A stretch of DNA of 32,808 bases. Source: an uncultured Holophagaceae bacterium (GTDB taxonomy: Bacteria > Acidobacteriota > Holophagae > Holophagales > Holophagaceae). The stretch's first letter is position 1; every line of letters begins with the position of its first letter. The position numbers were made by a program, and so were the translations under genes. Location of the stretch: positions 1-32,808 of the forward strand of contig CAIOFF010000039.1 of assembly GCA_903857495.1 (NCBI GenBank), read 5' to 3'. The notes under the pieces were generated by a model. The model saw only the letters and a list, made by a program, of their open reading frames with translations. It was not told the origin of the DNA and made no database searches. This document shows positions 4,069-32,808 of the stretch, piece by piece.

Positions 4069-4140
4069 ATCAAATATAATTTCTGGTGACTAGGTGTTAA
4101 GTGTTCTAGAGAAAGTTCTTGCCAAATATGGGAGTTTTCA

Positions 4141-4959: not shown

Positions 4960-5005
4960 AAATTGGCAATGCAATACCTAGATACCATCATTCACGAGGT
5001 GCATC

Positions 5006-5737: not shown

Positions 5738-6499
5738 TTTCCCCATAATATAGTTGTGAGATTGGCCTTAGGGCAAAATCATAGGGATATAATGAGAAGC
5801 CTCTTTAGCAAAAATTTAACCCTGGAGCGTAAAACTCCGCATAACCACTGACTCATCTGGCCACAGCGATGCCATCGGCTGTGGTCAGGTGATATCCGAA
5901 CCCGGCCCTCTGGCGACACGAAAACGGACCCCCTCACTAGGGAGGAGAGATGCTTCACAAGGGGGATTGCCCGAAACGCGTTCAGGGGCTGGATTCCAGA
6001 CGGTGTCGGCCGGCATTACTGTCGGCCAGTAAGGTTCCCCCTATTGGCGGCGCGTAGCCCCGGCTTGGAGGGGAACGGCTCCTCGTCGGGGTCTGGAATG
6101 GAGATGTCCACCGCCAGGAACCAGCGGCCCGAGGGGTGGTGCCAGCCTTCACGCTGTCAACCGGGCTCTGAGAAACCCCTCCAACAGTGCCTGTGGATGG
6201 CCAGCCTGGCCGAGATCTCTTTGAAACCCCGCATCGCAGCCAAACGCAGGTGTACTTTGGAGAAACGTAACTCTAGATCGGAGTCGTTCAGCAGAAACAC
6301 TATCTATTCGTGGCCACGCAGGGACTCTTCCTGCGGGTCTTTACCATAGCGTTCGGCTCTGGGAGGTAGAGGGACTGGAGCGCTGGCCTTGTAGGCACCA
6401 TCCACCATTCCAGTCGTGTCCCTGGACAGCCTCTCCAAGCGCTTGTTGACCGCCTCATTCTCGAACCTTCTCCCGAATTCGGAATTGATATCCTACGGG
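5738..6499. other. Gene-free tract, possible mobile-element debris
   Basis: About 760 bases between two convergent gene groups carry no gene I can support. A strong hairpin lies at 5857-5888. The stretch GGCGACACGAAAACGGACC from 5912 resembles terminal sequences I recall from IS21-type elements; this is only a recollection. On the minus strand, pieces of open frame with a plausible protein texture (for example NEAVNKRLERLSRDTTGMVD, about 6458-6399) are broken by stops down to about 6040. They look like a decayed gene, but I do not recognise the family. Base composition is higher in GC than in the flanking glycan genes. Confidence 0.35.
5857..5888 (+). terminator. Hairpin downstream of the methyltransferase
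   Basis: An 11-base arm CTGGCCACAGC pairs with GCTGTGGTCAG, with one G-U pair and a 10-base loop that can itself fold (GAT with ATC). It is about 120 bases after the methyltransferase stop and could end that transcript. It lacks a T tract, so a factor-independent terminator is uncertain. Confidence 0.35.
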
Positions 6500-7090
6500 T
6501 TAGGGCTCTGATCTGATTGCAGGATTGCATTGACATGGTTCAATTTTCAAGGGGTTGCCGAGCAGGCGAGCATATTTTAATAGCAACCTTTCGATGGTTT
6601 GCTTTCGGATAACATAGAACTTTTGAACATCTGTCTCATCTACCAGTTCAGCCGAGAAAAAGTTCTCATGAAAGTTACAAACATCCTTATTTTCTATATA
6701 TACATCAATTCTGGCCTCCTCAAACCCTAAATGCCTGCCATAGGCGTAAATCAATAAAGCCGACTCGATGGATGCCATCGGTGGCAATCCGTTAATCATC
6801 AACCAGGAACCCCAACAATAACTATTCTCGATCTGATCATACATTCGTATACAGCCAAGCCGTCTTTCATGCTTATCGCAAATGACGAAGTAGGCCTGAT
6901 CAGTGTTGGTTTGATAGGATCTAATCCATTCGATTTGATCTTCTAATTTATTAGACGTGGCTGACAAATATCGATTTTTTAATGGATCGAGTCTCAGATT
7001 GAGTATGAATTCAGCATCATCTACCCGGATATCTCGTAGGACAAGATTAGAGCCAGTAATGGCTTTGGCCTTTTTTATAATAGGGTACAT
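6500..7090 (-). CDS. GNAT-family acyltransferase
   Basis: This is a 196-residue protein with the GNAT acetyltransferase layout. LVLRDIRVDDAEFILNLR at the N-terminus is the typical RimJ/RimL-like opening, DQAYFVICDKHERRLGCIRMY forms the central strands, and ARIDVYIENKDVCNFHEN is the usual acceptor-side C-terminal segment. GNAT proteins in glycan clusters (PseH is one example) acylate the amino group of a sugar. It is the last gene of the ACP-reductase-ligase operon, and its ATG directly follows the ligase stop codon with no gap. No strong ribosome binding site is visible, so it is probably translationally coupled. I infer that it transfers an acyl group supplied by the three upstream genes to a sugar. 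Donor (CoA or ACP) and acceptor are not known from sequence. Confidence 0.7.
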   Translation of the reverse strand: MYPIIKKAKAITGSNLVLRDIRVDDAEFILNLRLDPLKNRYLSATSNKLEDQIEWIRSYQTNTDQAYFVICDKHERRLGCIRMYDQIENSYCWGSWLMINGLPPMASIESALLIYAYGRHLGFEEARIDVYIENKDVCNFHENFFSAELVDETDVQKFYVIRKQTIERLLLKYARLLGNPLKIEPCQCNPAIRSEP

Positions 7091-8386
7091 TTAATTTCGC
7101 TTAAATCGATGTCCCACATTGACATCCTCAATTAGGATGCGCTTGGGAACCATGTGTGGCTGAAGTTTGGACCTGAGGAAGGCCATGAATGAATCCTTAT
7201 CAACCATACCAGCGGTGGTTGGTTGAACCACAAGTTCAACGTGCTGCCCGGTGAAGGGATTCTGCTTGGCATGGGCTTTAACGAACGTAACATTCGGATA
7301 GTCCAACGCGACCCGCTCGACCTCTGATGCCATAAACTTCAAGCCACCGACATTTATAACGTCGCTGATTCGACCAACCACTTTATAATAATCGCCCTTT
7401 GACTCCACGACATCTTTGGTGTCGTACCATCCCTCAGGATCAAAGGGTGAGGAAGCATTGAGATAGCCGAGCATGCGAGATTCTGAACGAATCTGCAGGA
7501 TATTGTCTACCACTCTTGTCTCGACCCCTTCGCCACCGATTTTCATAAATAGGCTATTGCATGCCTCAGACTTGACACGGACGATACCGAGCTCCGACAT
7601 GCCAAAGGTTTGGCGAAAATCAATATGCGGCAATAGCAGGCATAAGTCATCAAGAGTCGGTTGATCCATGCGTTCCGTTCCATACGTGATGACCTTTAGA
7701 CAGGACGGAACCTTGTCGGGCACGGCCCCGCTCATAAGCATCATTCGCAAAAACGTTGGCGTGGTGGGTAGGGCCTCGACTTCATATTTTCGGCAGGTCT
7801 CCAGGACGGAATCTACGGTTCTGGCCTCTGGTGCGACGACAACACCTTTGTTGAACAACGTGTGAAGCAGTGTGTTGATCCCACCGATATGATCAAACAG
7901 GAGAAAGTTGATCGTTCTGAGGGTAGGCCGCGGCGTTTCGAAACGCTTAAGAAACAGGGTCAGGTCGTGCAGGATAGCTTTGGGTCGTCCGGTCGTGCCC
8001 GTCGAAAACAGGACTAGTCCAGCATGGTTTTTAGATCTTAAAAATTCGATGTATTCATGTGTTTTATCGTGCTGTCGACGGGTGGCTATCCCACCCCTAA
8101 TGATTACATCAACCAGGGCCGAGTCAAAAAAATACTCGTGTTCATTTGCGGTTTCAACTGTCAAAGGGACAATAATAACCTTTAGATCAATGAGCCTTAA
8201 AAGGGTAAGTATGGAGGAAGGGTTGAAGTCGCCTACTAGGGCGACGACATCTCCAGATTTTATAATGTTTAAATCAATTGAATGTTGAGACGCTATTTGT
8301 GAAAAACGCAGTTCACAATCTTCATGAATTAGAAAAGGATAATCAACGCGTTCCCATATCTCATTTAATTTTTCAAGTAATTTCAT
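7091..8386 (-). CDS. AMP-forming acyl-activating enzyme (acyl-CoA/ACP ligase)
   Basis: This is a member of the ANL adenylating superfamily. It activates a carboxylic acid as an acyl-adenylate and passes it to a thiol, either CoA or a carrier protein. The phosphate-binding loop is FSTGTTGRPKA (residues 127-137). The conserved TFGMSELG comes later, then the GWYDTKD motif and GRISDVINVGGLKF as hinge and C-terminal core. The C-terminal lysine region ends as HRFKRN, so a Lys is present near the usual catalytic position. At 431 residues it is shorter than the usual 500 or more, mainly in the N-terminal domain. ATG at 8386 overlaps the reductase stop (TGATG) and has AGGTGG upstream; a TTG three bases earlier is possible. 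Its place beside an ACP suggests it loads that carrier. Confidence 0.85.
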   Translation of the reverse strand: MKLLEKLNEIWERVDYPFLIHEDCELRFSQIASQHSIDLNIIKSGDVVALVGDFNPSSILTLLRLIDLKVIIVPLTVETANEHEYFFDSALVDVIIRGGIATRRQHDKTHEYIEFLRSKNHAGLVLFSTGTTGRPKAILHDLTLFLKRFETPRPTLRTINFLLFDHIGGINTLLHTLFNKGVVVAPEARTVDSVLETCRKYEVEALPTTPTFLRMMLMSGAVPDKVPSCLKVITYGTERMDQPTLDDLCLLLPHIDFRQTFGMSELGIVRVKSEACNSLFMKIGGEGVETRVVDNILQIRSESRMLGYLNASSPFDPEGWYDTKDVVESKGDYYKVVGRISDVINVGGLKFMASEVERVALDYPNVTFVKAHAKQNPFTGQHVELVVQPTTAGMVDKDSFMAFLRSKLQPHMVPKRILIEDVNVGHRFKRN

Positions 8387-9063
8387 CAAACACCACCTAC
8401 ATGCAGTACTTGACCAGACAAAGAGGCGCTTTTCTCATCCAGCAGTAGTTCTACTAAATCGCTCACATCCTCGGTGGTAAATTGTCTAGAGATGATTTGC
8501 TGAGCAATGATTTTATCTATTTGATGAGAGGTGATTCCTTTAAGGAGATTTGTATCAATAGGTCCGGGTGCTATACAGTTCACCTTGATATTGAAATCAG
8601 ACATCTCACGTGCAAATGCTCGCGTGAATCCTTCAACTCCGGCCTTTGACGCCGCATAAATCGATTCACCCTTCAACCCTAATGCAACCGCAATCGTGGA
8701 GAAATTGATGATTGAACCCGTTCTGTTCCTGATAATCAATGGAGCCATCTGTTGACAGCAGTAAATGGTTCCAAGCAGATTCGTATGAACAATACTCTGT
8801 GATACTTTGGGTGGGGTAGTAAGTGCTAGATTCATTGAAGCTATTCCGGCGGCATTAATTAATCCTTCAATCTTGGCACCCAATTTTTTTAATCGTTGCA
8901 CAACAGCTTTAATATCCTCATAAGATGAAACATCACATTTCATTGATTGAAAGTCTATTGCGTCGATGTTCCGTGCAAGTCCAAAGACTTCCATGTTTTT
9001 GGAAATAAGCCTTTCACAAATTGCCCGGCCTATCCCTCTGCTTGCGCCAGTAACAACTATCAT
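8386..9063 (-). CDS. Short-chain dehydrogenase/reductase, FabG-like
   Basis: This is a classical SDR oxidoreductase of 225 residues, probably an NADPH-dependent 3-oxoacyl reductase. The cofactor motif TGASRGIG spans residues 5-12. The structural motif appears as INAAG at 69-73. The catalytic triad is Ser122, Tyr136 and Lys140 in the IYAASKAG segment, and the later IAPGPIDT is the standard segment. The gene overlaps the ACP stop by four bases (ATGA) and the next ATG by one base, so translation is coupled along the operon. In this context it most likely reduces a 3-oxoacyl group on the operon's own carrier protein to a 3-hydroxyacyl group. Housekeeping FabG is an alternative, but the neighbours argue for a specialised role. 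Base composition is AT-rich, as in the rest of the island. Confidence 0.88.
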   Translation of the reverse strand: MIVVTGASRGIGRAICERLISKNMEVFGLARNIDAIDFQSMKCDVSSYEDIKAVVQRLKKLGAKIEGLINAAGIASMNLALTTPPKVSQSIVHTNLLGTIYCCQQMAPLIIRNRTGSIINFSTIAVALGLKGESIYAASKAGVEGFTRAFAREMSDFNIKVNCIAPGPIDTNLLKGITSHQIDKIIAQQIISRQFTTEDVSDLVELLLDEKSASLSGQVLHVGGV

Positions 9064-9347
9064 TTTTTTGTATCCAATTGATGGATAAATTCGGAAGCCA
9101 AGGAGCCTGCTGTTCTGAACATGCTTCGAGATTTTGACATCGCTGCATCTGAAGTCCAGTCAAACTCAAAACCAAGTTCAGAGGCCTTGTCCTCAAGGGC
9201 CAAGCAAAGCTCAACCAACTTCATCGAGTTCAGTAGACTGCCATCACCAATGAGCGGTGTTTCCTTTGAGATCTGAATGGATTTATCATCAAGGAGGTTG
9301 CTAATCGCCATAAAAATTTCAGGCTCAATTAGGTTATTGCTAGGCAT
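9060..9347 (-). CDS. Acyl carrier protein-like protein
   Basis: This is a 95-residue acidic protein with the ACP helix II pattern, LLNSMKLVELCLALED. Ser41 lies where the phosphopantetheine-bearing serine is normally found; the usual Asp-Ser-Leu is Asn-Ser-Met here. Lack of the Asp before Ser is a departure from housekeeping ACPs and fits a specialised carrier. I choose ATG 9347 because GAGGGG lies a few bases upstream and the promoter at 9391-9419 would start transcription near 9384. That makes the TTG at 9386 impossible and the ATG at 9374 unlikely. It is the first gene of the ACP-SDR-ligase-GNAT operon. Its proposed role is to hold the acyl chain while the SDR reduces it and the GNAT transfers it. 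Confidence 0.72.
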   Translation of the reverse strand: MPSNNLIEPEIFMAISNLLDDKSIQISKETPLIGDGSLLNSMKLVELCLALEDKASELGFEFDWTSDAAMSKSRSMFRTAGSLASEFIHQLDTKK

Positions 9348-9390
9348 GGTCCCCTCGGCATTGTTCTTGGTCATGTGACCAAACAATCAT

Positions 9391-9419
9391 ATTTTACTTG
9401 GTCTTGTTTCATTCAACAA
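9391..9419 (-). promoter_or_regulatory. Candidate sigma70 promoter of the acyl operon
   Basis: On the minus strand TTGTTG (9419-9414) and TAAAAT (9396-9391) are separated by exactly 17 bases. The -10 matches five of six consensus bases and the -35 matches three. The predicted start near 9384 gives a leader of about 37 bases to the ACP ATG. Confidence 0.5.
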
Positions 9420-9496
9420 CACCGAAGCTGATCTCCCGATTGAAAACTTTAGCGCAGAGTGCTGTGGTCCCCCCCCAGCGCATGCCTCGAGTGGAC

Positions 9497-9634
9497 CTAA
9501 GCTCGAGTCGGCAGATTTTCCGATCCGCTCCTCAACCGGCGAAGTGAGGCCAGAATCTGCTGAAGGGTTCCCAATGCCCACCCGGCTATCTGCAGATCAG
9601 ATTTGAGTCGCGCCAGCTCATGGCTGTGGCGCAC
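9497..9634 (-). CDS. Possible small ORF, 45 residues, very strong SD
   Basis: A short frame on the minus strand starts with GTG at 9634 and ends with TAG at 9497-9499. It is preceded by AAGGAGGTGAT (9647-9637), an eleven-base complement of the 16S rRNA 3' end, at good spacing. The product begins MRHSHELARLKSDLQIAGW and looks like one amphipathic helix rich in Leu and Arg, with no signal peptide and no family I recognise. It lies between the WecA-like gene and the acyl operon, all on the same strand. It could be a real small protein, a leader peptide, or the surviving 5' end of a gene that lost its remainder. The evidence is only the ribosome binding site and the frame. Confidence 0.35.
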   Translation of the reverse strand: MRHSHELARLKSDLQIAGWALGTLQQILASLRRLRSGSENLPTRA

Positions 9635-9775
9635 GTATCACCTCCTTGAATGTTGGGCTGGTGCTTAACCTCGCCATGTCCAAGAAGCCTTATTTTATCG
9701 ATTTACGCTGGCTATTCCCGAACAGGCTGGCGCTGGCGCGCTCCTTCATCGCTGCGGAACGCAACTTCATTCAAG

Positions 9776-10813
9776 CTACCGAAATAGGGCACTCTGCTCA
9801 AACAGTGATTTTCGATTGAGCAGGATGAGGCCCATTGCATAGAGTATTCCTTGGACCAATGGCAACCACGCATGTCCCGAGAATAAAACAAATCCCGCTG
9901 AGTTTAAGATGAGGATGGGGGTAGCGATCAGCACACGTCCACCTGTCAGGTTCAGCAGGTGATGCGGGCAGGTGGCACGATCCGCCGTGAAGAAGCTCAT
10001 CCGGAGCCTTCTCCGCCGGATCAAGCCCATGGCCACATCCAGGGAGATGGGCGCGGTGAAGGCCAGGGCCATGACGGGATGGGCCAGTCCGCCCCCGCGC
10101 AGGATGGCTTCGGCCAGCAGGAAGCCACAGCCGAAGCTGCCTGCGTCACCCATGAAGTGCTTGGCTCTGGGCCAGTTGAGCAAAAGGAAGCCCACGAGGG
10201 CCCCCAGGGCGATCCGCGTATCCACTCCCCGCAGGCAGAGGGCGAGCAGCACGATCCAGGTGTAGCCCCCCATGTAGCCGTTGATGGCGTCCTCGATGTT
10301 CACGGCATTGGGCACGGCCATGAACCAGAAGGTGAGGAGGGCGAAGGCCGCGATGAGCAGCATGGGGGAGGCCAGCCACCCCTGGGGGAGCCAGGGCACC
10401 CCGGATGCTTGCAGGACCAGGACCCAGGGCCAGGCCGCCAGCGCCGACAGGGAGATGAGGCTGACCACCTTCTCCCGTGGGTGAAAGCTGAACCGGTCAT
10501 CCAGGACCCCCACGGTGGTGAAGCCCAGGCCTGCGAGCCAGGTCTGCCAGGGGAGCGCGGGCCAAGGCAGCCAGCCGAGGGCCACGGACGCGAGGAACAC
10601 CAGGCCACCGCCCAGCACCATGGCCAGTCCGCCGGTTCGCGGGGTGGCCTTGGTGTGAACCTTCCGGGGATCCGGGTGGTCGATGAAGCCCCAGGCCTCG
10701 GCCTCGCGAACAAGCAGGAGCCCCGCGGCCAGGGTGGTGACCGCAGACAACAGGGGGAGCAGCAATCGATGCATTCCAGCAGAGCTTTCAGCAGAGGACA
10801 GTGGAAAGTCCAT
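9776..10813 (-). CDS. WecA/MraY-family polyprenyl-phosphate sugar-1-P transferase
   Basis: This is a multi-pass membrane enzyme of the PNPT family. Such enzymes start a glycan by moving a HexNAc-1-phosphate from its UDP donor to undecaprenyl phosphate. Of its 345 residues most are hydrophobic helices. Family motifs are HTKATPRTGGLAMV (53-66), the metal-binding Asp pair in GVLDDR (Asp105-Asp106), MGDAGSFGCGF (221-231) and a CPHHLLNLTGGR (282-293) that corresponds to the HIHH loop. The segment NAVNIEDAINGYMGG (169-183) takes the place of the usual N-x-x-N-x-x-DG-x-DG motif, keeping one Asp but not the DG repeats. The start is uncertain: ATG at 10774 would remove 13 residues that look unlike a membrane segment, and neither start has a clear ribosome binding site. 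It probably initiates the repeat unit that the island glycosyltransferases extend. Confidence 0.82.
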   Translation of the reverse strand: MDFPLSSAESSAGMHRLLLPLLSAVTTLAAGLLLVREAEAWGFIDHPDPRKVHTKATPRTGGLAMVLGGGLVFLASVALGWLPWPALPWQTWLAGLGFTTVGVLDDRFSFHPREKVVSLISLSALAAWPWVLVLQASGVPWLPQGWLASPMLLIAAFALLTFWFMAVPNAVNIEDAINGYMGGYTWIVLLALCLRGVDTRIALGALVGFLLLNWPRAKHFMGDAGSFGCGFLLAEAILRGGGLAHPVMALAFTAPISLDVAMGLIRRRRLRMSFFTADRATCPHHLLNLTGGRVLIATPILILNSAGFVLFSGHAWLPLVQGILYAMGLILLNRKSLFEQSALFR

Positions 10814-10858
10814 GGTAGCCCGTGGCTGGGGCCAGCACGAATGGCTTTCCTGGACACC

Positions 10859-10886
10859 GAAGGAGCCCCGGTGAGGGGGCTCCTTC
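10859..10886 (-). terminator. Strong hairpin after pnp
   Basis: GAAGGAGCCCC at 10859-10869 pairs perfectly with GGGGCTCCTTC at 10876-10886 across a six-base loop. It sits between the pnp stop codon and the start of the WecA-like gene. There is no T tract on the minus strand, so it may be an attenuator, an RNA 3'-end stabiliser or a weak terminator. Confidence 0.5.
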
Positions 10887-10905
10887 GGGTTCGTGAAGAA
10901 ACGGC

Positions 10906-13086
<2,181 letters not shown>

Positions 13087-13306
13087 GAGGTCTCCGGGGC
13101 CCTCGGGCCCTCAGGGGGCTCCCCCGGATCCCGGGCACCGGCCCGGTTCTCCTGCGATCGCTCCATGAAACCCGTCCGCCAAATCCTGAACCAGGAGGGG
13201 AGGTGGGCTTCCTGCAGAGGTCGCCGCCGAGGGAGAGCAGATGTAATCGGCCTCATCAGCATAGCACAGGCAGAAAACCGCGCTCTCGTCCCCCGAAAGG
13301 AGGGGG
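13087..13306 (-). promoter_or_regulatory. pnp leader region with GC-rich hairpins
   Basis: The 220 bases before pnp contain no gene. Just below the CapD-like stop codon a CCCCC/GGGGG hairpin could stop or weaken read-through. Nearer to pnp the minus strand has CCGGGC-CGGT-GCCCGG (about 13145-13130) and a GGGCCC-containing stem close to the start codon. In Escherichia coli PNPase controls its own mRNA through a structured leader. A similar role here is only inferred, because GC-rich DNA forms such stems easily. Confidence 0.35.
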
Positions 13307-15265
<1,959 letters not shown>

Positions 15266-15595
15266 GGACAGATCCTGGCATGCGCCAATCTAGCAATAGC
15301 TTGGTCAATTCTGCGAACTATTATGACCAGGACAAGGACTAAGACGCGGGGCTGGTCCATGAACAGCGCTCTGCAGATCCAGGAAGTGCCCGGGGGCAGG
15401 GCCGGGTTGGCGTTGCGAGTGTTCCTTCCGGCGCCCCCACGGGGACTGTCCAAGGGGTTAAAACCCGACTCAGCCCAATTACTTAGACCTTGCTATGATT
15501 GGCGATTACACGGACCACCAACTTCGGGGATTCCCTGGACCCTTTTCGGGGCTGGTGGTGATCCAATGGACTGATGTCCTTTGCATGAGGAACCA
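15266..15595. promoter_or_regulatory. Divergent promoter region, capD-like / SLBB gene
   Basis: About 330 bases separate two divergent glycan genes. For the plus-strand gene an extended -10 element, TGCTATGAT, lies at 15491-15499, about 100 bases before the start codon, without a clear -35. For the minus-strand gene I see only weak candidates, such as TTGACC near 15305. The tract is locally AT-rich and holds no open frame worth calling. It is a sensible place for shared regulation of sugar synthesis and export. Confidence 0.4.
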
Positions 15596-18349
15596 ATGAT
15601 GCGGCTGATGATGCGTGTGGGGTTGCTGTTCGCCTGTCTGCCGCTCCTGGCCCAGCTGCCCCAGGGCCTGGACCTGCAGGCGCTGAAGCAGGCTGCTACC
15701 GCCCAGGGGGCGGGTGTCCCGGATGCTGTCCCGACCAAGGCCAACGCGGCTCCAGCCGCTGCGCCGGATGAGGCCGCCCGGCAGCGCCGGGAGGATGAGA
15801 AGCTGGACGAGGAGATCAAGGCCCTGAAGGCCCGGGAGAAGGGGCCTCGCCGCTTTGCTGCGGACCTGTTCCAGGTGCGGCAGGCGGGCTCGGCGGCCAC
15901 GGAAGGGGGCATCGCCGAGGACTACGTGCTGGGCACGGGGGACCGGCTGAACCTCAACGTGTTCGGCAGCGCCACCTTCGATCTGCCCGTGCAGGTGGAC
16001 GGGCGGGGTGAGATCGTCATCCCCAAGGTGGGCACGGCCAAGGTGGGCGGACTCAGCCTGGGCAAGGCCAAGGCCGCGGTGCAGAGCCTCGTGAGCCGCA
16101 ACTTCTCCCGGTCTTCGGTGGATCTGCAGGTGATCAAGCTGCGCGAGGTGCGCGTCTTCGTCCTGGGCGAGGTCTACAAGCCCGGCAGCTACCTGGTCTC
16201 CAGCCTCAGCTCCCTGGTGAACCTGCTGAGCCTAGCCGGCGGCCCCACGGCGGTGGGCAGCTATCGTGACGTCCGCGTCATGCGCGGCGGCCAGAAGGTC
16301 CACGGGCTGGATCTCTACCCCCTGCGGGCCGAGGGCCTGGGCAATCCCAACGTGGCCCTGCAGAGCGGCGACACGGTGTTTGTGCCCCTGGCGCAGAATC
16401 AGGTGCTGCTGGAAGGCGCCTTCCAGCGGGTGGTGGGCCAGGTGGCCGACCTCCCCAAGAAGGGCGAACGCCCGGCGGAAGACTTCGAGTTCGATCCCCT
16501 CAAGGACCAGCGGGAGCGGATCCAGCGTGAGCTCAAGGCCCTCGAGGATCAGCTGGCTCCCCGGGCTGAGCCCGCGGCTCCCGAGTTCGCGGCCGATGGC
16601 CGGCCCGTGACGCTGGTGGCGCCCGTGGCCCCGCTGCCCTTGGCAGAGCGCGCGGCCCTCGAAGACCGCCTGTCTTTCCTGAAGCGGCAGCAGCTTTCCC
16701 TGAAGGGCAACCGCCTTGGCGACCATCGCCTGCGCCTGAATCCCGAGACGGGCCGGCCCTTCGTCGACGCTGCCGAGCCCGATGCCCTCCAGCCCGAGTG
16801 GCTGCGCCGCTGGGAACAGACCGGGGTGGCGCCCCTCATGCAGTTCGAGCTCCGCAGCGGGGAGACCGCTGCCGATGCCCTCCGGTTCGCCGGGGGCTTT
16901 GCGCCCGAGGCGGGCCCCGGGACGCTGTCCCTGCGGCGCCGGGAGGCCTCCGGCATCCAGAGCGGCCAGGACGTGGCCCTTGACGCGGCGGGTCGTACGC
17001 CCCTGCAGCGCGGGGACCTGCTATCGGCGCTGCCCCAGCGGGAGCGCACGGGTCCGGTGGTGGAGATCACCGGCTGGGCGCGAGTGCCGGGCGCCTATGC
17101 CCGCACCTCAGGCATGCGGGTGGCCGACCTGCTGAAGCGCGGGGATCAGATCCTGCCGGACACCTACCGGGCCCGGGGGGAAGTGGTCCACAAGGCAACG
17201 GATGGCACCACCCGCTTCCAGAGCTTCGATCTGAACCAAGCCCTGGCGGGAGACCCGGCGCACAACCTGCTTCTGGAGGACCGGGACCGGGTGGAGCTGT
17301 TCCGCATGGAGGACCTCCGACTGACCCGCACCGTGACGGTGCTGGGCCCCGTGAAGAGGCCCGGGCAGTTTGCCTTCCATGAGGGCATGCGGGCCTCGGA
17401 TCTGGTCTTCCGCGCGGGTGTGCCCCACAAAGCAGCGGATCGCTTCGTGGCGGAGCTGGCCCGCACCAAGGATGGGAAACCCAGCGAGGTCCTCAAACTG
17501 GACCTGGCCCGGCTGCTCTCCACGGAGGCCGCCAGCCCCGTGGCGCTGCTGGATGAGGCGGTGAACCCCCGCATCCAGCCCGACGATCAGCTGAGCCTCT
17601 TCGAGCGGCCGGACTACAAGGTGCATCGGACGGTGACCCTCATCGGGCAGGTTCTTCGACCCGGGCCCTATGTCCTGGATTCGGCCAAGCCGACCCTGAG
17701 CAGCCTCATCCAGCGGGCCGGAGGGCTGACCTCCGAGGCCATGCCCAAGGCGGGCGTGTTCCTCCGCCGCATGGGTAGCCAGGATGCGGCCCTGCAGCGG
17801 GTGGCCGAGGAGACGGGCATTGCCCAGAAGGACCCCACCTCCAAGGGCATCAACGAGATCCTGGAGCGCATGAACGAGACCAAGCGGCAGACTGCCACTG
17901 GGCAGCTGCTGAAGACGCCCATCCTGCATGGTCTGCTGGCCAACAGCCTGAACCGCATGGTCGTTAACTTCGACATGGCACTGAAGGGGAACAACGGGAT
18001 GGACGTGGAGTTGCAGGACGGGGACGAGATCATCATCCCCCGGTCCACCGAGGCGGCCTACGTGGTGGGTGAGACGGCCAGCCCCTTCGCCACCTACAAG
18101 ATCCAGGCGGGCATGAAGGTTTCGGACCTGCTGCGCATGGCGGGTGGCACCACCCGCAACGCGGACACCTCGCAGATGCGCCTCCTGAAGGCCGATGGCC
18201 GGATCCTGGATTCGTGGTTGGAGGGCAAGGCGGTGGAGCCCGGTGATACCGTGCTGGTACCGCAGCGCATCCGTCGCGATTCCAACTGGCAGGAGAACCT
18301 GACGGCCTTGACGCCCATCGCGGTCATGCTGAGCGTGCTGAAGCTCTAG
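15596..18349 (+). CDS. Polysaccharide export protein with five SLBB domains
   Basis: This is a large (917 residues) secreted Wza-type protein, expected in the periplasm and outer membrane as the exit channel for a polysaccharide. The N-terminus MMRLMMRVGLLFACLPLLA is a signal peptide without a lipobox. A poly-export domain begins near residue 108 with EDYVLGTGDRLNLNVFG. SLBB beta-grasp domains follow near residues 185 (VFVLGEVYKPGSY), 488 (ITGWARVPGAY), 580 (VLGPVKRPGQF), 679 (LIGQVLRPGPY) and 820 (YVVGETASPF). Between the first two lies a charged helical stretch around LKDQRERIQRELKALEDQ, possibly a coiled coil. Canonical Wza has about 380 residues and fewer SLBB domains, so this is an expanded form. 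GAGGAA precedes ATG 15596; the next ATG at 15599 is equally possible. No Wzc-type kinase is adjacent. Confidence 0.9.
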   Translation: MMRLMMRVGLLFACLPLLAQLPQGLDLQALKQAATAQGAGVPDAVPTKANAAPAAAPDEAARQRREDEKLDEEIKALKAREKGPRRFAADLFQVRQAGSAATEGGIAEDYVLGTGDRLNLNVFGSATFDLPVQVDGRGEIVIPKVGTAKVGGLSLGKAKAAVQSLVSRNFSRSSVDLQVIKLREVRVFVLGEVYKPGSYLVSSLSSLVNLLSLAGGPTAVGSYRDVRVMRGGQKVHGLDLYPLRAEGLGNPNVALQSGDTVFVPLAQNQVLLEGAFQRVVGQVADLPKKGERPAEDFEFDPLKDQRERIQRELKALEDQLAPRAEPAAPEFAADGRPVTLVAPVAPLPLAERAALEDRLSFLKRQQLSLKGNRLGDHRLRLNPETGRPFVDAAEPDALQPEWLRRWEQTGVAPLMQFELRSGETAADALRFAGGFAPEAGPGTLSLRRREASGIQSGQDVALDAAGRTPLQRGDLLSALPQRERTGPVVEITGWARVPGAYARTSGMRVADLLKRGDQILPDTYRARGEVVHKATDGTTRFQSFDLNQALAGDPAHNLLLEDRDRVELFRMEDLRLTRTVTVLGPVKRPGQFAFHEGMRASDLVFRAGVPHKAADRFVAELARTKDGKPSEVLKLDLARLLSTEAASPVALLDEAVNPRIQPDDQLSLFERPDYKVHRTVTLIGQVLRPGPYVLDSAKPTLSSLIQRAGGLTSEAMPKAGVFLRRMGSQDAALQRVAEETGIAQKDPTSKGINEILERMNETKRQTATGQLLKTPILHGLLANSLNRMVVNFDMALKGNNGMDVELQDGDEIIIPRSTEAAYVVGETASPFATYKIQAGMKVSDLLRMAGGTTRNADTSQMRLLKADGRILDSWLEGKAVEPGDTVLVPQRIRRDSNWQENLTALTPIAVMLSVLKL

Positions 18350-21181: not shown

Positions 21182-22711
21182 TCAGGCGCTGGCGCTGTTC
21201 TGGCCGGCCATCTGGATGTCGAGGACGACGCTGTGGCGGGGATTGTCGGCCCGCTCGATCCACTGGACGCGGGCACCGAGGAGGCGGGTCAGCTGGATGA
21301 GGCCTTCCCGGGCTTCCTGGTTGAGGGCGCTGGACAGCTCTGGGTGCAGGGTCAGGCGCACCTCGGCGCCGCGGAGGCGCTCGCCCAGGCGCACCAGCTC
21401 GCGGTAGGCCTTGAGCAGTGCGGTCTCGGAGTTCTGGGTGCGGCCCACGCCGTTGCAGGTGGGGCAGGGCTGGGTGAGCTGGCGCTCCAGGGAGGGGCCG
21501 GTGCGCTTGCGGGTGAGCTCCACCAGGCCGAACTCGGAGATGCCGCCGGCGCGGGCGTGGTTGCGGTCGCGCTTGAGCTCATCCTGGAACCGGGTCAGCA
21601 CCTCGTCGCGGTGGGCGGGGTCCACCATGTCGATGAAGTCGATGACCACGATGCCGCCGAGGTTGCGCAGGCGCAGCTGGCGCACGATCTCGGGGATGGC
21701 CTCCAGGTTGGTGAGGTAGACCGTCTCCTCGAGATCCTTCTTGCCGACGAACTTGCCCGTGTTCACGTCGACGCTGACCAGGGCCTCGGTCTGGTTGAGC
21801 ACGATGGAGCCGCCATGCCGCAGGAAGACCTTGGGCTGGCGGGCGGAGTCGATCTCGGCCTCGATGCCGAAGGCCTCGAAGATGGGCAGGTCCGAGGTGA
21901 AGTGCTTCACCCGGTTGGCCCACTCGGGATGCAGCTTCTCGACGAAGGCCAGCACGTCGCAGTGGGCTTCGGCGTCATCCACCCAGAAGGTGGACACTTC
22001 TTCGCGGAAGATATCGCGCAGCACCTTCTGGAGCAGGCGCAGGTCCTGCCAGACCAGGCCCGGGGCGGGGACGGTCGCGGCCTTGGCCTGGATCTCCTGC
22101 CACATCTGCCGTAGGAAGGCCACGTCGCTGACCAGGTCCTCGTCCTTCTCCCCGATGGCGGCGGTCCGGACGATGAAGCCCTCACCGGGCTGGGCATGGC
22201 TGCGGATCAGGTCGCGCAGGCGGTCCCGCTCGGCGGGGTCGGTGATCTTGCGGGAGATGCCGATGTGGTCGATGCCCGGCATGAAGACCAGGAACCGGCC
22301 CGGGAAGCTCAGGTGCCGGGACAGGCGGGGGCCCTTGGAGCCGATGGGATCCTTCACCACCTGGACTAGGGTCTCTTCACCCTCCTTGAGGGGGGGCAGG
22401 GGCGGGGGGGGTGGCGGCAGCTCCTCGGTTGGGGTCTCCTCGCCGTCTTCCTCGGTGGCCAGGTCCGCGCCCATGCGCTGGGCGACGGGATCGTCCAGGT
22501 AGAGGAACCCGTCCTTGACCCCACCGATGTTGACAAAGGCGCTCTGCATGCCCGGCAGCAGCTTCGCGACCCGGCCTTTGTAGATGTCTCCCACCTGGCT
22601 TTTGTTCATCGTCCGTTCGAGGAACAGCTCACAGAGCTGACCGTTCTCAAGCAGGGCGATGCGCGTCTCCAGGGGGGTCGAATTGACCACCAGGGACTTG
22701 CGGACTTCCAT
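21182..22711 (-). CDS. rng: Ribonuclease G/E family endoribonuclease
   Basis: This is a 509-residue single-strand-specific endoribonuclease involved in rRNA maturation and mRNA decay in the cytoplasm. It has the RNase G length and lacks the long C-terminal scaffold of RNase E. An N-terminal S1 domain begins near GDIYKGRVAKLLPGMQSAFV (about 41-60) and is interrupted by an acidic and proline-rich insert, ELPPPPPPLPPLKEGEE (about 97-113). The catalytic DNase I-like domain has VSVDVNTGKF, LRLRNLGGIVVIDFIDM with the metal-binding Asp, and DELKRDRNHARAGGISEFGL. The zinc-link CPTCNGVG, used for dimerisation, is present. The protein ends with DIQMAGQNSASA. A second RNA-decay enzyme, pnp, is 8 kb away in this window. 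Confidence 0.95.
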   Translation of the reverse strand: MEVRKSLVVNSTPLETRIALLENGQLCELFLERTMNKSQVGDIYKGRVAKLLPGMQSAFVNIGGVKDGFLYLDDPVAQRMGADLATEEDGEETPTEELPPPPPPLPPLKEGEETLVQVVKDPIGSKGPRLSRHLSFPGRFLVFMPGIDHIGISRKITDPAERDRLRDLIRSHAQPGEGFIVRTAAIGEKDEDLVSDVAFLRQMWQEIQAKAATVPAPGLVWQDLRLLQKVLRDIFREEVSTFWVDDAEAHCDVLAFVEKLHPEWANRVKHFTSDLPIFEAFGIEAEIDSARQPKVFLRHGGSIVLNQTEALVSVDVNTGKFVGKKDLEETVYLTNLEAIPEIVRQLRLRNLGGIVVIDFIDMVDPAHRDEVLTRFQDELKRDRNHARAGGISEFGLVELTRKRTGPSLERQLTQPCPTCNGVGRTQNSETALLKAYRELVRLGERLRGAEVRLTLHPELSSALNQEAREGLIQLTRLLGARVQWIERADNPRHSVVLDIQMAGQNSASA

Positions 22712-27277: not shown

Positions 27278-27996
27278 GGGGTCTCCGCTGGGGGGGTCGA
27301 AGCCGTAGGGGACCATGAGAACACCAAATGCCGGGGGAATGAACCACTGGCCTCCGGACACGGGTCCCGAAGAACGGCGACAGGGCTGGAGCAGGTGGAA
27401 CGCTGGCTCTTCTCCCCACAGCCTCCCCTGAACCGTTGCAGGAAGGCTGCCTCACTGCTTTCGCTTAGAGTCGGTTCAGGCCATTAGCCGGGATTTTCTC
27501 CTCGCCACGGGGATCATAACTATTGAAATTGATGAATTTGAAATATTTAACAGCTTGGGACGGGTCGGAATTGCCGGATTGGGACTCGCTCGGTTGGTCA
27601 AGGGCGTCTGTCCGCACAAGTACAATCCACCGGCCGGATTGAACCCCAATCACCAGCAAAAAGGAATGCCCCTAACTGATGCCAGACCGTGTGATTTAGA
27701 TCAACATGACTACATTTTGTATTAATCATTTAGAGATAATCTATGCCTATTTTTTGCCAAGAATAGGGAGATTCTCTTGAGCTTGCAACGAGGCGTTGGG
27801 GGTTCTAAGTAAAAATACGTAAGTTATTCTACTGACTGGACTAACGATTCGGTGCACCCCAGTATCATCAAACCGCCAAAAGTGATGGTGGTTCCTGTGG
27901 AGGGTCCGCTTCGTCTTGCGGAGCCCTGCCCAAGGGTTGCTGAACACTGATCGCAAAGAGATGAATCTGCTGTTTTTAGAATTGTTGAGGTGCCGT
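27278..27996. promoter_or_regulatory. Long AT-rich intergenic tract, panB / multicopper oxidase
   Basis: About 720 bases between divergent genes hold no credible open frame. The part from about 27500 to 27800 is far richer in AT than the genes on either side. Within it I see a nine-base inverted repeat, CCTGAACCG with CGGTTCAGG (27427-27435 and 27472-27480), and an FNR/CRP-like site at 27691-27704. TCCGC-x8-GCGGA and ACCGCC-x9-GGTGGT hairpins lie just before the oxidase gene (27870-27940). Possible -10 elements include GATAAT at 27735-27740. The length suggests complex control or a long leader. Confidence 0.45.
27691..27704 (+). promoter_or_regulatory. FNR/CRP-like binding site
   Basis: GTGATTTAGATCAA matches the FNR consensus TTGAT-N4-ATCAA at nine of ten specified positions, and TGTGA-N6-TCA matches most of a CRP site. 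It lies about 300 bases before the oxidase start, so control would require a start site well upstream of the gene. Confidence 0.35.
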
Positions 27997-30900
27997 ATGA
28001 GCAAGATTGTCAGGCAATTGATGGGGCTGACTGCAGCCCTGTGCGCTGGAGTGGGCCTGTTCGCCCAGTCCACTGAGGTGCCGAACCGCACCGCCGCTCC
28101 GACCGTGGGCGGCGACAAGGGCGTCATCATGGAGCGGGCCACCCGCCGGGCCGTGCTGAACAATGCCCGGGCGGCGGCGGCGGCGCGGACCAAAGCTGCG
28201 CTCCAGGCCAAGGGTGGCAAGGTCGATCCCGCCAGCCTGGGGGTGAACCCCGCGGTCCGGAATACGGCCTTGGCCGGCAAGGTCATCTCGCCAGAAGGGG
28301 CGCAGGCGGTGGCCGGCCCCGGCTTCCAGCTGGCGCAGCCCGACTACATGTTCGGGACGGCCAGCAACTGGCACAACACCAAGCCCATCAGAAAGTTCGT
28401 GGACACGCTGCCCGGCCTGGGCGCGGCCAATAAGAACAATCTGGGGAACTTCATCCCCGTGGCTCAGCCTGACACGGCCACCTATCCTGGCTCCGACTAT
28501 TACCAGCTGGGCGTGGTGCAGTACACCCAGAAGCTGCACTCTGAGCTGAACGCGACCAGGCTCCGGGGCTACAAGGACATCGGCCCAAAGGCCGAGAACA
28601 CGGCCAATGGCGCCAACAGCTCGAACTACCTCGGGCCCCTCATCATCGCCCACCGGGACCGCCCCGTGCGGGTGAAGGTCACCAACCAGCTGCCCAAGGG
28701 CACGGCGGGGGATCTGTTCATCCCCGTGGACACCACCATGATGGGCGCTGGCTACGGTCCTCTTGGCAACAAGGCCACGGGGACGAAGCTCTACACCCAG
28801 AACCGGGCTGAGCTTCACCTGCACGGTGGGCTCAACCCCTGGATCAGCGATGGCACCCCCCACCAGTGGTTCACGCCTGCGGGCGAGAACACCAGCTACC
28901 AGAAGGGCGTCGCCTTCCAGAACGTGCCCGACATGGGCGCGGGTTCGGCTGGCGATGGCATCGGCACCTACTACTACACCAACCAGCAGAGTGGGCGCCT
29001 GCTCTTCTACCACGACCACACTTTCGGGCTCACCCGCCTCAACGTCTACGCTGGCGAAGCCGCAGGCTATCTCATCGTGGACCCGGTCGAGGACAAGCTC
29101 ATCAACGCCGGAATCCTGCCCAACAACGGCGGCGGCGTCTACAACTACGGCATCCCCCTCATCATCCAGGACAAGACCTTCGTCGATACCACCACCCTGG
29201 GCACCCTTGGCGTGCAGGGTGGGACCGATCCCACCTGGGACGTCAACAAGTACGGCGGTGATGGCGCCCTCTGGTATCCCCACGTCTACATGGTGAACCA
29301 GAACCCCGCCGACCTGTCTGGCGCCAATGCCATGGGCCGGTGGGACTACGGCCCGTGGTTCTGGCCCCCGCTGACCGCCGCCGCGGGCCTGGTGCATGGC
29401 GCCGAGCCCATCCCTGGCGATCCCAACGGGACCGAGATCCCCGGCACGCCCAACCCCTCGCTGGTGCCCGAAGCCTTCCTGGACACCCCTGTGGTGAACG
29501 GCACCGCCTATCCCAAGCTCACCGTGCTTCCCCAGGCCTACCGGTTCCGGATCCTAAACGCTTCCAATGACCGCTTCTGGAACCTGAGCTTCTTCAAGGC
29601 GGACTCCACGGGCACCGAGGTGGCCATGGCCCCCGCGGCTCCGAGCTCCAACCCCAACTGGCCCGCCAACTGGCCCACTGATGGCCGCGCCGGCGGGGTG
29701 CCTGTGCCCTGGACTGCGGGGCCCTCTTTCATCCAGATTGGCACCGAGAGCGGCTTCCTGCCCGCTCCCGTGGTGGTCGCTCCTCAGCCCGTGAGCTACA
29801 ACTACAACCGCCGCGACATTGTGGTGCTGAATGTCGCGGACCATGGGCTGTTCCTCGGAGCCGCCGAGCGGGCGGACGTGATCGTGGACTTCTCGAACTA
29901 TGCCGGCCAGAAGCTCATCCTCTACAACGATGCCGGCGCTCCCGTGCCAGCCTTCGACCCCCGCCTCGACTACTACACCGGCTGCCCCGACCAACGCGAC
30001 TCCGGCGGCGCCAACACCACGCAGCCGGGTTACGGCCCCAACACCCGCACCATCATGCTCTTCGAGGTGGCCCTGACCACTCCCGCAGCGCCCTTTGACC
30101 TGGCTGCCCTGGAGCGGGCCTTCACCACCACGGCATACTCCAACGGCGCCTTTGCCGAAGCCCAGCATCCTCCCATCGTGCCTTCTTCCGCCTTCGACAC
30201 AGCCTACAACAAGAGCTTCACGGATGAGTACGTTCGCATCCAGGACCAGCAATTCCGCCGCCCCTATGCCTCCACAGAGAATGGCGATCCGGTTCAGCCG
30301 ACCCTGGAGCCCAAGGCCATCCAGGAGCTCTTCGAGCTGGACTACGGCCGCATGAACGCCACCCTCGGCGTGGAGCTGCCCTTCACCAACTTCAACATCC
30401 AGACGACCATCCCTCTCGGCTACTCGGATCCTGCGACCGAGACCCTGGTCGATGGCACCACCCAGCTCTGGAAGATCACCCACAACGGTGTGGACACGCA
30501 CCCCGTCCACTTCCATCTCTTCGATGTGCAGATCGTCAACCGCGTGGGCTGGGACGGCGCTGTGCGCTTCCCGGATGCCAACGAGTTCGGCTGGAAGGAA
30601 ACCGTCAAGATGAACCCGCTGGAAGACTGCATCGTCGCCTTCCGGCCCCTGTCCCCCCGCCTGCCTTTTGCCCTGCCGAACAGCCTGCGCACACCGAATG
30701 TTGTTAGTGCGACGAACGCTCCCATCAGTGTGACCGACCCCCTGAGCGGCAATCCCATCACCGTCACGAACAGCGTGGTGGACTACGGCTGGGAATACGT
30801 GTGGCACTGCCACATTCTCGGCCACGAAGAGAACGACTTCATGCGGCCCATGATCCTGAATGTGGCCAGAACGGTACCGAGCGCCCCCTCGACCTTGACG

Positions 30901-32376
30901 GCCAAGGACATCAACGCCACCCGTCTGGATCTGGCTTGGAAGGACAACTCCACCGATGAAACCGGCTTCTCCATCCAGCGTCGGGCCGGTGGCAGCAGCA
31001 ACGACTGGGTCCAGATCGGCGCCGTCGTGCCGAACGTCCGCAGCTTCAGCGACTTCACCGTGACCAACGGTTCCAGCTATGACTACCGCGTCGTGGCCTA
31101 CAACCAGGCCGGGGACTCCGCCCCCAGCAACATCGCCACGCTTGGCGTTTCCACGGTGAGCGTTACGGGCACCGTCACCAGTGCCGGTGCGCCTACCCAG
31201 GACATCCTCATCAGCATCAGCAATGGTCAGACCGTCCCGACCGATGCCAGTGGTGTCTACACCTTCTCCGTCCCCGTGGGCTTCACGGGCACGGCCACAC
31301 CGATCACGAGCAGCTACGTCTACACCCCCGCCCGGAGGACCTATACGGCGCTGGCCGCTGATCAGACCGGCCAGAACTACACGGCCGCCACGGTGATCAC
31401 CGTGTCCGGCAAGGTCGCCGTCGGAGCGACGGCCCTGGCCGGCGCCACGGTCACCTTCAGCACCGGCGAGACGGCCACCACCGATGCCAGTGGCAACTAC
31501 AGCAGGGTCCTCTTCTCTCCCTACACCGGTTCCTTCAGCGCCACCAAGGCGGGCTACTACATCACTCCGTTCAGCGTTGCTCTGGTCAGTGCCACCACGG
31601 ACCTGCCCGGCCAGAACTTCAGCGCCGTCACCGGGTTCAGTGTCTCCGGTCGCGTGACCGCCAATGGCACCGGCGTAGCTGGTGTCGCGGTGGCCTTCGC
31701 CAGCGGTGCCACCCCTGTCACCGACGCAGCCGGCAACTTCAGCGCCATGGTTCCCAGTCGCTACAGCGGCACCATTACGCCGTCCAAGGCGGGCTACACC
31801 TTCACGCCCACCAGCATCACCCTGAACCGCATCGCCGCCAACACCACGGGCCAGAACTTCACGGGCCGTGCGGTCTGGCCCGTCACGGGCACCGTCACCT
31901 CCGGAGTGACGCCCCTGGCCGGCGTCACCGTGACCTTGAGTGGCACCGGCGGCGGCTCGGCCACCACCACCGCTGCCGGCACCTACACCTTCAACGCCAA
32001 TGCGGGCTGGAGTGGCACCATCACCCCCACCCTGCGGGGAACGCTCTTCCTGCCGGCCAGCGTCACCGTGGCCAACCTCGCTGCGGCCAGGGCCCAGAAC
32101 TTCAGCACAGCCCAGACCCTGGCCGGAACCACCCGGCTGGCCAGCAACAACAGCAGCGTCAATGGGGTAACGCTCACTGCCACGGGCACGGTTGGCGGGG
32201 CTCCCTTCACGGCCACAGCCACCTCCAGCGGCACCGGAACCTTCACCCTCACCGTACCCACGGGCTGGGTGGGCACCGTCACCGCCACGAGCGCGGGTCG
32301 CACCTGGACCACGACCACCGTCATGCCCATGACCGTGAATGCGAACGTCACCACCCTCGCCTTCCTCGGCCGCTAG
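27997..32376 (+). CDS. Secreted multicopper oxidase with FN3 and five C-terminal repeats
   Basis: This is a 1459-residue exported enzyme of the CotA/laccase type, expected to oxidise a metal ion or organic substrate and reduce oxygen. The signal peptide ends AGVGLFA before Gln-Ser. The four copper-ligand motifs are present: HLHGGLNPW (His274), HDH (339-341), HPVHFH (835-840) and HCHILGHEENDFM (937-949). Cys938 and His943 are type 1 copper ligands. Where CotA has axial Met, Phe948 stands here, with Met949 next. An FN3 domain runs from about 961 to 1050. Five repeats of about 80 residues (1054 to the end) follow, of the carboxypeptidase-regulatory or Ig-like type, with TTDASGNYS and GQNF signatures. 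GAGGTG just before ATG 27997 sets the start. Large putative multicopper proteins on the outer surface are known in Geobacter (OmpB); likeness in role is inference. Confidence 0.92.
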   Translation: MSKIVRQLMGLTAALCAGVGLFAQSTEVPNRTAAPTVGGDKGVIMERATRRAVLNNARAAAAARTKAALQAKGGKVDPASLGVNPAVRNTALAGKVISPEGAQAVAGPGFQLAQPDYMFGTASNWHNTKPIRKFVDTLPGLGAANKNNLGNFIPVAQPDTATYPGSDYYQLGVVQYTQKLHSELNATRLRGYKDIGPKAENTANGANSSNYLGPLIIAHRDRPVRVKVTNQLPKGTAGDLFIPVDTTMMGAGYGPLGNKATGTKLYTQNRAELHLHGGLNPWISDGTPHQWFTPAGENTSYQKGVAFQNVPDMGAGSAGDGIGTYYYTNQQSGRLLFYHDHTFGLTRLNVYAGEAAGYLIVDPVEDKLINAGILPNNGGGVYNYGIPLIIQDKTFVDTTTLGTLGVQGGTDPTWDVNKYGGDGALWYPHVYMVNQNPADLSGANAMGRWDYGPWFWPPLTAAAGLVHGAEPIPGDPNGTEIPGTPNPSLVPEAFLDTPVVNGTAYPKLTVLPQAYRFRILNASNDRFWNLSFFKADSTGTEVAMAPAAPSSNPNWPANWPTDGRAGGVPVPWTAGPSFIQIGTESGFLPAPVVVAPQPVSYNYNRRDIVVLNVADHGLFLGAAERADVIVDFSNYAGQKLILYNDAGAPVPAFDPRLDYYTGCPDQRDSGGANTTQPGYGPNTRTIMLFEVALTTPAAPFDLAALERAFTTTAYSNGAFAEAQHPPIVPSSAFDTAYNKSFTDEYVRIQDQQFRRPYASTENGDPVQPTLEPKAIQELFELDYGRMNATLGVELPFTNFNIQTTIPLGYSDPATETLVDGTTQLWKITHNGVDTHPVHFHLFDVQIVNRVGWDGAVRFPDANEFGWKETVKMNPLEDCIVAFRPLSPRLPFALPNSLRTPNVVSATNAPISVTDPLSGNPITVTNSVVDYGWEYVWHCHILGHEENDFMRPMILNVARTVPSAPSTLTAKDINATRLDLAWKDNSTDETGFSIQRRAGGSSNDWVQIGAVVPNVRSFSDFTVTNGSSYDYRVVAYNQAGDSAPSNIATLGVSTVSVTGTVTSAGAPTQDILISISNGQTVPTDASGVYTFSVPVGFTGTATPITSSYVYTPARRTYTALAADQTGQNYTAATVITVSGKVAVGATALAGATVTFSTGETATTDASGNYSRVLFSPYTGSFSATKAGYYITPFSVALVSATTDLPGQNFSAVTGFSVSGRVTANGTGVAGVAVAFASGATPVTDAAGNFSAMVPSRYSGTITPSKAGYTFTPTSITLNRIAANTTGQNFTGRAVWPVTGTVTSGVTPLAGVTVTLSGTGGGSATTTAAGTYTFNANAGWSGTITPTLRGTLFLPASVTVANLAAARAQNFSTAQTLAGTTRLASNNSSVNGVTLTATGTVGGAPFTATATSSGTGTFTLTVPTGWVGTVTATSAGRTWTTTTVMPMTVNANVTTLAFLGR
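31156..32373 (+). repeat. Five tandem 80-residue repeats inside the oxidase gene
   Basis: Repeat units begin near 31156, 31396, 31633, 31873 and 32119. Each has a V-x-G-x-V start, an A-G-V-T-V-like strand, T-D-A-S-G-N-Y or a variant, G-x-I-T-P-x-K-A-G-Y, and ends with G-Q-N-F or similar. The first four are clearly alike; the fifth is diverged and ends the protein. Confidence 0.75.
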
Positions 32377-32384
32377 ACTCCTCA

Positions 32385-32414
32385 CCCCGGGCGCGATCAG
32401 CGCCCGGGGTTATT
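32385..32414 (+). terminator. Intrinsic terminator of the oxidase gene
   Basis: CCCCGGGCGC (32385-32394) and GCGCCCGGGG (32400-32409) form a perfect ten-base stem with a five-base loop GATCA, followed by TTATTT. It starts eight bases after the oxidase stop. Confidence 0.88.
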
Positions 32415-32574: not shown

Positions 32575-32808
32575 ATGCCGAGTTCAAGACGCCAGCAACA
32601 TGAATCGCCATGGGCGCTTCTCCTGGGGCTGCTCGCCCTGCTGGGCCTGGTCCTGCAATTCGCCTGTGGCGGCAGCCACTCCAACCCGCCGCCACCGGCG
32701 CCCGTGGCGACGAGCCTGGTGGCCGCGACGAATCCCGTGCCCTTCGGCGGCACCACCAGCATCACGCCGACCTTCAGCAACGGGTCCGGCAGCGTGGACA
32801 ACGGCATC
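32575..32808 (+). CDS. Lipoprotein with Ig-like region, partial (3' end outside window)
   Basis: An open frame of 78 codons runs from ATG 32575 to the window edge. GGGAG lies seven bases upstream. After a short polar start, a hydrophobic helix LLLGLLALLGLVLQFACGG ends in a Cys that is probably lipidated, although the -3 residue is Gln. The mature part begins with a Pro-rich linker, then SLVAATNPVPFGGTTSITP and TFSNGSGSVDNG. This is the style of bacterial Ig-like domains in repeated surface proteins. It follows the oxidase in the same direction but behind a strong terminator, so it is a separate transcript. Confidence 0.7.
   Translation, partial: MPSSRRQQHESPWALLLGLLALLGLVLQFACGGSHSNPPPPAPVATSLVAATNPVPFGGTTSITPTFSNGSGSVDNGI

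Follow-up and report, generated by a model that had tools for sequence, protein, structure and literature searches.

In the laccases compared in a 2026 paper, the type 1 copper site of the bacterial enzymes is Cys-His2-Met and that of the fungal enzymes is without the Met (PMC13323077). The axial residue of Trametes villosa laccase is Phe463 (PMC3918160), and potentials of 760 to 790 mV are reported for Trametes enzymes with axial Phe (PMC6487685). Replacement of Leu by Met in a Botrytis laccase is reported to lower the potential by 140 mV, and a gap of 250 mV is described between two fungal laccases that share axial Leu (PMC4220974). Among bacterial enzymes, the Met460Phe mutant of lacTT is reported to have a type 1 potential of 416 mV, compared to 357 mV before the change, without a gain in kcat (PMC6487685), and in CotA, according to a paper citing the work, Met502Phe raised the potential and left ABTS turnover at about 1% of that of the wild type (PMC3918160). 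In SLAC, Met298Phe is reported to lower the potential relative to 366 mV, with the ring rotating into a thin neighboring pocket and water near the copper, and the same paper describes fungal-like single mutants of bacterial enzymes as failing in this way, the Phe ring swinging away and water entering (PMC13323077).

OmpB and MofA are described as extracellular oxidases for which links to the reduction of Fe(III) oxide and the oxidation of Mn(II) are reported; OmpB has a fibronectin domain, and the reported neighbors of ompB and mofA encode SCO1/SenC, a cytochrome-plus-binding-domain protein, and a peptidyl-prolyl isomerase (PMC5566968). The role of mofA in Leptothrix ochracea has been described as unclear (PMC11412304). 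Here we analyze a stretch of 32,808 nucleotides (the window) from an uncultured Holophagaceae bacterium that carries the gene of a large multicopper oxidase with Phe in the place of the axial Met.

The oxidase gene and the register of its axial residue

The open reading frame as listed (P0001) spans 27916-32376 on the plus strand and has 1,486 residues from a TTG start. The ATG at 27997 is the likely start and the TTG the less likely one, because a GAGGTG-like ribosome site, recognized by eye, lies 5' of the ATG and a signal-peptide-like stretch follows it. The gene of an exported multicopper oxidase would then run from 27997 to 32376 (plus strand), with 1,459 codons. Residue numbers are those of P0001, so that Phe975 is Phe948 when counted from the ATG. 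A putative Sec signal peptide, MSKIVRQLMGLTAALCAGVGLFAQ, read by eye from the translation (27997-28068, plus strand), suggests that the oxidase is exported. A three-domain CotA-like core (residues 150-990; 28363-30885, plus strand), supported by a predicted model and by the match to CotA, is followed by a fibronectin type III domain (residues 989-1074; 30880-31137, plus strand; PF00041, 30.1 bits with a cut-off of 25) and by four repeats of about 80 residues (31162-32121, plus strand), which begin with V(S/T)G(T/K/R)V at residues 1083, 1163, 1243, and 1323 and give a partial match to PF13715 that lies under the cut-off of that family. The PhsA, CueO, and FtsP equivalogs of NCBIfam scored 103.3 of 950, 57.6 of 525, and 26.7 of 581 bits, respectively, all far under their cut-offs. 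A single ELFE at residue 804 was left unused as an EXXE sign of iron binding.

A terminator-like hairpin of 11 pairs lies 3' of the gene (32384-32410, plus strand); five such sites occur in the window and a mean of 3.0 in shuffled sequences, so that shuffles give about as many. Within the window, no Rfam family and no tRNA were found, and RNA and repeat scans added nothing. Upstream of the oxidase gene lie panB and panC. Downstream, the start of a lipoprotein gene (32575-32808), recognized by eye from its lipobox-like FACG, is ended by the contig edge and, again by eye, looks like the gene that follows the oxidase at locus L036 (6137-10183). Farther away, positions 784-18349 hold polysaccharide-type genes, which encode glycosyl transferases, a Polysacc_synt_2 protein, and a 922-residue SLBB/Poly_export protein, together with a gene for PNPase, and the gene of an RNase E/G lies after these, at 21182-22711.

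All eleven copper ligands, ten His and Cys965, are present in the pattern HxH, HxH, HxxHxH, HCHxxxH, and none of them varies in any of the 67 aligned members. They are spread over four motifs on the plus strand: HLHGG with His301 and His303 (28816-28830), YHDH with His366 and His368 (29008-29019), HPVHFH with His862, His865, and His867 (30499-30516), and HCHILGHEENDFM (30805-30843), which holds the type 3 ligands His964 and His966 and the type 1 ligands Cys965 and His970, followed by Phe975 and Met976. Translation of 30805-30843 confirmed the run given in the original prediction, with Phe and a Met after it.

The best solved relative in a phmmer search was CotA of Bacillus subtilis (E value of 2.6e-40). 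HMMER places P0001 residue 981 on CotA residue 508, and the alignment runs back through the motif without a gap (VWHCHILGHEENDFMRPM versus VWHCHILEHEDYDMMRPM), which puts Phe975 (codon TTC, 30838-30840, plus strand) on CotA Met502. A model of residues 150-990, predicted from 67 aligned relatives, had a mean pLDDT of 85.7 and a pTM of 0.91, and both Foldseek and VIA-align 2 ranked CotA-type chains at the top. The best VIA-align 2 row was CotA (7y8b_A; Z score of 32.8, rmsd of 2.3, 476 residues, 38% identity), and the bilirubin oxidase of Myrothecium reached a Z score of about 26.7. Judged by the model, the core is of the three-cupredoxin CotA fold. At its end the structural alignment sets model residue 835 on CotA residue 511, which brings model residue 826 (P0001 residue 975) onto CotA residue 502 if, as we infer, no gap lies between. 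Alignment and predicted model thus bear out the assignment of this Phe to the axial place of CotA. The axial Met of the CotA and bilirubin oxidase ligand set is missing here, and in the sequence register a noncoordinating Phe stands at the axial place, as Phe or Leu does in high-potential laccases, the class with type 1 potentials of about 700 mV or more. Overall, it is highly probable that a noncoordinating Phe975 fills the type 1 axial position.

Distribution and origins of axial Phe

Of the 182 unique large-oxidase family members that were read, 126 carry Met at the axial place, 54 Phe, and 2 Leu; the codon is ATG for every Met, TTC (52 members) or TTT (2 members) for Phe, and CTG for both Leu. 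The 182 were kept from 214 family frames on the basis of an open frame of more than 300 residues, a summed score of at least 350 bits, and a stretch of 350 or more residues ahead of the motif; these filters left out one Phe row, L058_1318, which was put back for a 93-row tree. Two other trees held 132 rows (the first tree) and 79 of 162 rows. The loci came from a genome-contig scan (79 loci) and from searches of relatives and of other groups, and their sampling is biased to Holophagaceae and the Geobacter order, since the queries originated there.

The nearest named relatives are Holophagaceae and Geothrix records (Acidobacteriota). In the first tree, each of the 27 rows that make up the Holophagaceae clade has Phe, and the adjoining row, from Anaeromyxobacter (L075), has Met. 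Five genes of the same genome match Cu-oxidase_2: the window gene, a close paralog on contig C20, which is 70% identical to the window protein over the whole length and has the same Phe motif, and three genes with Met at the corresponding place. The idea that Phe is an oddity or an error of the window gene is rejected by its presence in this paralog and in 27 of 27 clade rows; on the aligned sequences, Phe975 is a clade-wide residue. It would be wrong to say that all large oxidases of the genus Geothrix have Phe, as a genome of the same genus has a Met-type member (L021) in another part of the tree. Any match at all was found in 18 of 36 genomes of that genus, in some of them only to short oxidases or to the repeat tail. 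A tblastn search against plasmids gave 58 records, the best listed being 25 to 30% identical and not close relatives.

Axial Phe also occurs in a main and a second group of the Geobacter order, in Lentisphaeria, in a single Geobacter-order row (L202), and in Phycisphaerae (L058_1318 and L276), and a gammaproteobacterial Phe row (L347) sits inside the second Geobacter-order group. A Geobacter-order class of 1,304 to 1,325 residues (L175, L176, two members in L178, and L179) has axial Met. In one Holophagaceae genome, three large Phe-type oxidase genes lie in a row within 19 kb (L038/L043; CAIMFT010000142.1, G035:C142 3832-22743). Two genomes of the Geobacter order have neighboring copies with axial Met and axial Leu (L193 and L194; G374:C5 and G420:C157) and, at a separate locus, a copy with axial Phe (L169 and L157, respectively), so that all three axial residues occur naturally within a single cell.

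Trees for counting changes were built without the axial codon. The minimum number of changes between Phe and other residues was five in the 79-row tree and six in the 93-row tree; many inner branches are modestly supported, and the counts do not separate gain from loss. A single origin of Phe was rejected: a tree constrained to keep all 30 Phe rows in one group fell 346 log-likelihood units lower. A constraint that joined just the Holophagaceae and main Geobacter Phe groups was not rejected (22.8 units, P = 0.097), and these two groups may therefore share one origin, perhaps by transfer. Phe appears to be an old, clade-wide state that has arisen several times in the large-oxidase family. In the titles and abstract openings of the open-licence papers surveyed, we found no description of natural axial Phe in bacterial oxidases, which is weak evidence.

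Residue 864 and the type 1 potential

When 652 alignment columns were scanned for separation of Phe from Met rows, with the Phe groups weighted equally, the axial column was perfect and column 864 came next, with a balanced accuracy of 0.93; only these two columns reached 0.9. Column 864, picked after looking, is the variable position (x) of the HPxH motif and lies between His862, a type 1 ligand, and His865, a type 3 ligand; in the window protein it is Val864 (30505-30507, plus strand), a second-shell residue in the place of CotA Ile421. At this place CotA has Ile (HPIHLH in the alignment). In fungal laccases the HPxH residue is typically bulky and aromatic. In the 182-member set, the 54 Phe rows have Val (53) or Leu (1), the 126 Met rows have Ile (103), Met (12), Val (8), or Leu (3), and both Leu-axial members have Ile.

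A prediction was fixed before the other classes were read, and the two new Phe rows of the family had Leu (L276) and Val (L347). The 18 new, nonduplicate Met rows of at least 350 bits had Ile (15), Val (2), or Leu (1). With L058_1318 (Leu) included, Val or Leu is found in 57 of 57 Phe rows of the family. L347 groups with the Phe/Val clade already known and L276 with L058_1318, so that only L276, together with L058_1318, is a separate new origin. Outside the family, a distant, shorter oxidase from the search of Myxococcota (L336; G1247:C89, 138 bits) has axial Phe (HCHILDHEDNEFM) with Met at the x of its other motif, HPMH. On the 93-row tree, the well-supported branches give five pairs that differ in the axial residue; in three to five of these pairs Val or Leu accompanies Phe, and no pair shows the opposite (P = 0.0625 to 0.25). 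Coupling of Val/Leu864 with Phe is therefore suggestive and not significant, because the independent origins are too few. In the group of L202, relatives with axial Met (L132, L167, and L170) have Val or Leu at the place of residue 864, a pattern that would fit a permissive first step, as if Val or Leu had preceded Phe. From its place two residues away from a type 1 His, we infer that Val864 contacts Phe975.

The association could instead reflect shared ancestry and a general exchange among hydrophobic residues, without any contact between residue 864 and Phe975. To this we assign a substantial, though minority, share of the probability: the independent origins are few (five pairs, counted on well-supported branches), Val or Leu likewise stands beside axial Met in 11 of 126 rows, and the column was chosen after looking. 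However, no pair runs in the opposite direction, column 864 leads all 651 other columns, and the one new separate origin fits.

In the published mutants the potential rises with axial Phe (lacTT and CotA) or falls (SLAC), so that in a bacterial scaffold the sign of the shift depends on the pocket. A type 1 potential above that of the Met-type sister enzymes would be a likely effect here, with chances that we see as about evenly divided. The original prediction had moved from axial Phe to a possibly raised redox potential; its Phe stands, but the step to a raised potential is not secured by Met-to-Phe swaps that go either way.

Comparable weight to that given to shared ancestry belongs to the view that Phe is tolerated rather than selected, the potential being unchanged or lowered as in SLAC and the clade-wide state being due to drift or packing. 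The SLAC M298F mutant, reported to lie under the wild type with water near the copper (PMC13323077), the CotA M502F mutant, reported to hold about 1% of ABTS turnover (PMC3918160), and the reported difference of 250 mV between laccases with the same axial residue (PMC4220974) all speak for such tolerance. The recurrent changes on the tree speak against it, as does the strict retention of Phe throughout the Holophagaceae clade (27 of 27 rows) together with one accompanying residue.

Possible role and comparison with known systems

The paralog in the same genome (L195, G000:C20 4980-13972) is preceded by genes for proteins of 220, 576, and 636 residues. Their homologues at a related locus (L037; 88 to 96% identical) are, by Pfam, SCO1/SenC, a cytochrome c with a periplasmic-binding-like domain, and a kelch lipoprotein; in the second of these, the cytochrome c match is over the Pfam cut-off and the binding-like domain just under it. 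The SCO1/SenC and cytochrome-c/binding-protein genes are absent beside the window copy and present beside this paralog. A cytochrome-type neighbor was found at 9 of 31 loci with a Phe oxidase versus 0 of 48 loci with Met oxidases only, a biased comparison, since the queries came from Phe loci (L195 and L083, two of the nine, supplied them) and the flanks were often cut. Loci of the Geobacter type have an FKBP isomerase in addition. Because the neighbors of the paralog resemble those reported for ompB and mofA, we regard the oxidase as a possible surface or secreted oxidase of metals or phenols. In the manner proposed for OmpB and MofA, it may oxidize a substrate outside the cell, for example Fe(II), Mn(II), Cu(I), or a phenol or humic compound, a suggestion that we would place slightly short of an even chance.

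A part in the reduction of Fe(III) or Mn(IV) oxides, as in OmpB, is a good deal less probable. Geothrix records fall in the clade of the host, the Geobacter order contains the other large Phe group, and both a requirement for OmpB and its fibronectin domain have been reported (PMC5566968), a domain that the window protein also has; against such a part, all ligands of the trinuclear center are kept. Extracellular oxidation is the role that we prefer.

It is very improbable that Met976 turns in and binds the copper to give an ordinary Met site with a shifted ligand: the Met after the axial residue is kept in 182 of 182 unique members (the first set), but equally so beside axial Met, Phe, or Leu, and four further Met-axial members (L321, L323, L324, and L342) have Leu in place of the second motif Met (DMLRAE), so that Met976 is neither a compensation for Phe nor indispensable, and the register with CotA is gapless. 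The original prediction, too, had not taken this Met, numbered 949 from the ATG, as the axial ligand, and as a poor substitute it is rightly passed over.

The explanation that we somewhat favor as a whole is that of an exported oxidase of the CotA fold with a Phe-capped type 1 site, accompanied by Val or Leu at residue 864, that carries out extracellular oxidation. The type 1 copper would be held by His862, Cys965, and His970, and electrons would enter there and pass through the Cys-His relay to the trinuclear center, as the conserved ligands suggest by comparison with other such oxidases. In the SLAC mutant the Phe ring swings away and water enters, and Val/Leu864 is therefore proposed as a natural change of the pocket: with about equal chances of being right or wrong, we suggest that a pocket reshaped by Val or Leu lets the larger Phe ring sit over the copper without admitting water. 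A more far-reaching proposal, which we regard as rather unlikely in its full form, is that one bacterial family of large extracellular oxidases holds several independent, fungal-like, three-coordinate type 1 sites, in which the paired changes of Ile to Val or Leu and of Met to Phe pack the ring over the copper, keep water out, and raise the potential.

If this far-reaching proposal is true, nature would already have a second-shell solution, one that SLAC and CotA mutants with the Met-to-Phe change alone do not have. Bacterial enzymes that naturally carry axial Phe, from several lineages and with one recurrent partner, offer ready comparisons for testing what sets the type 1 potential. Should the pair work as proposed, it would provide a simple rule, with two residues to change, by which the potential of CotA-type oxidases could be raised, and extracellular oxidases of bacteria of the Geothrix and Geobacter types would be tuned upward, with a bearing on the part of these bacteria in iron and manganese cycling.

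Among described enzymes, CotA of Bacillus subtilis and the Bacillus bilirubin oxidases are like the window protein in fold (Z score of 32.8), in ligands, and in the register of the HCHILxHE motif. CotA differs in its axial Met502, where the window protein has Phe, and in its length of about 505 residues, compared to a core of 841 residues, enlarged through insertions, to which the fibronectin domain and the repeat tail are added. In the high-potential laccases of Trametes, Phe is likewise reported as the axial residue (Phe463 in the Trametes villosa enzyme), whereas the scaffold of the window enzyme is of the bacterial CotA type. OmpB of Geobacter sulfurreducens and MofA of Leptothrix are, in the published description (PMC5566968), likewise exported large oxidases with fibronectin III, a likeness by description. 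Of the gene clusters reported for them, SCO1/SenC and the cytochrome-c-plus-binding-domain protein are also found beside relatives and beside the paralog in the same genome, in some cases with an FKBP isomerase, but the cluster is absent beside the window copy. The reported SLAC M298F, lacTT M460F, and CotA M502F mutants carry the same axial change of Met to Phe in a bacterial enzyme. What appears new here is that, in natural bacterial enzymes, the axial change recurs and is coupled with a second residue: in the mutants the change is a single one without a second-shell partner, whereas the natural enzymes pair Phe with Val or Leu at the place of residue 864.
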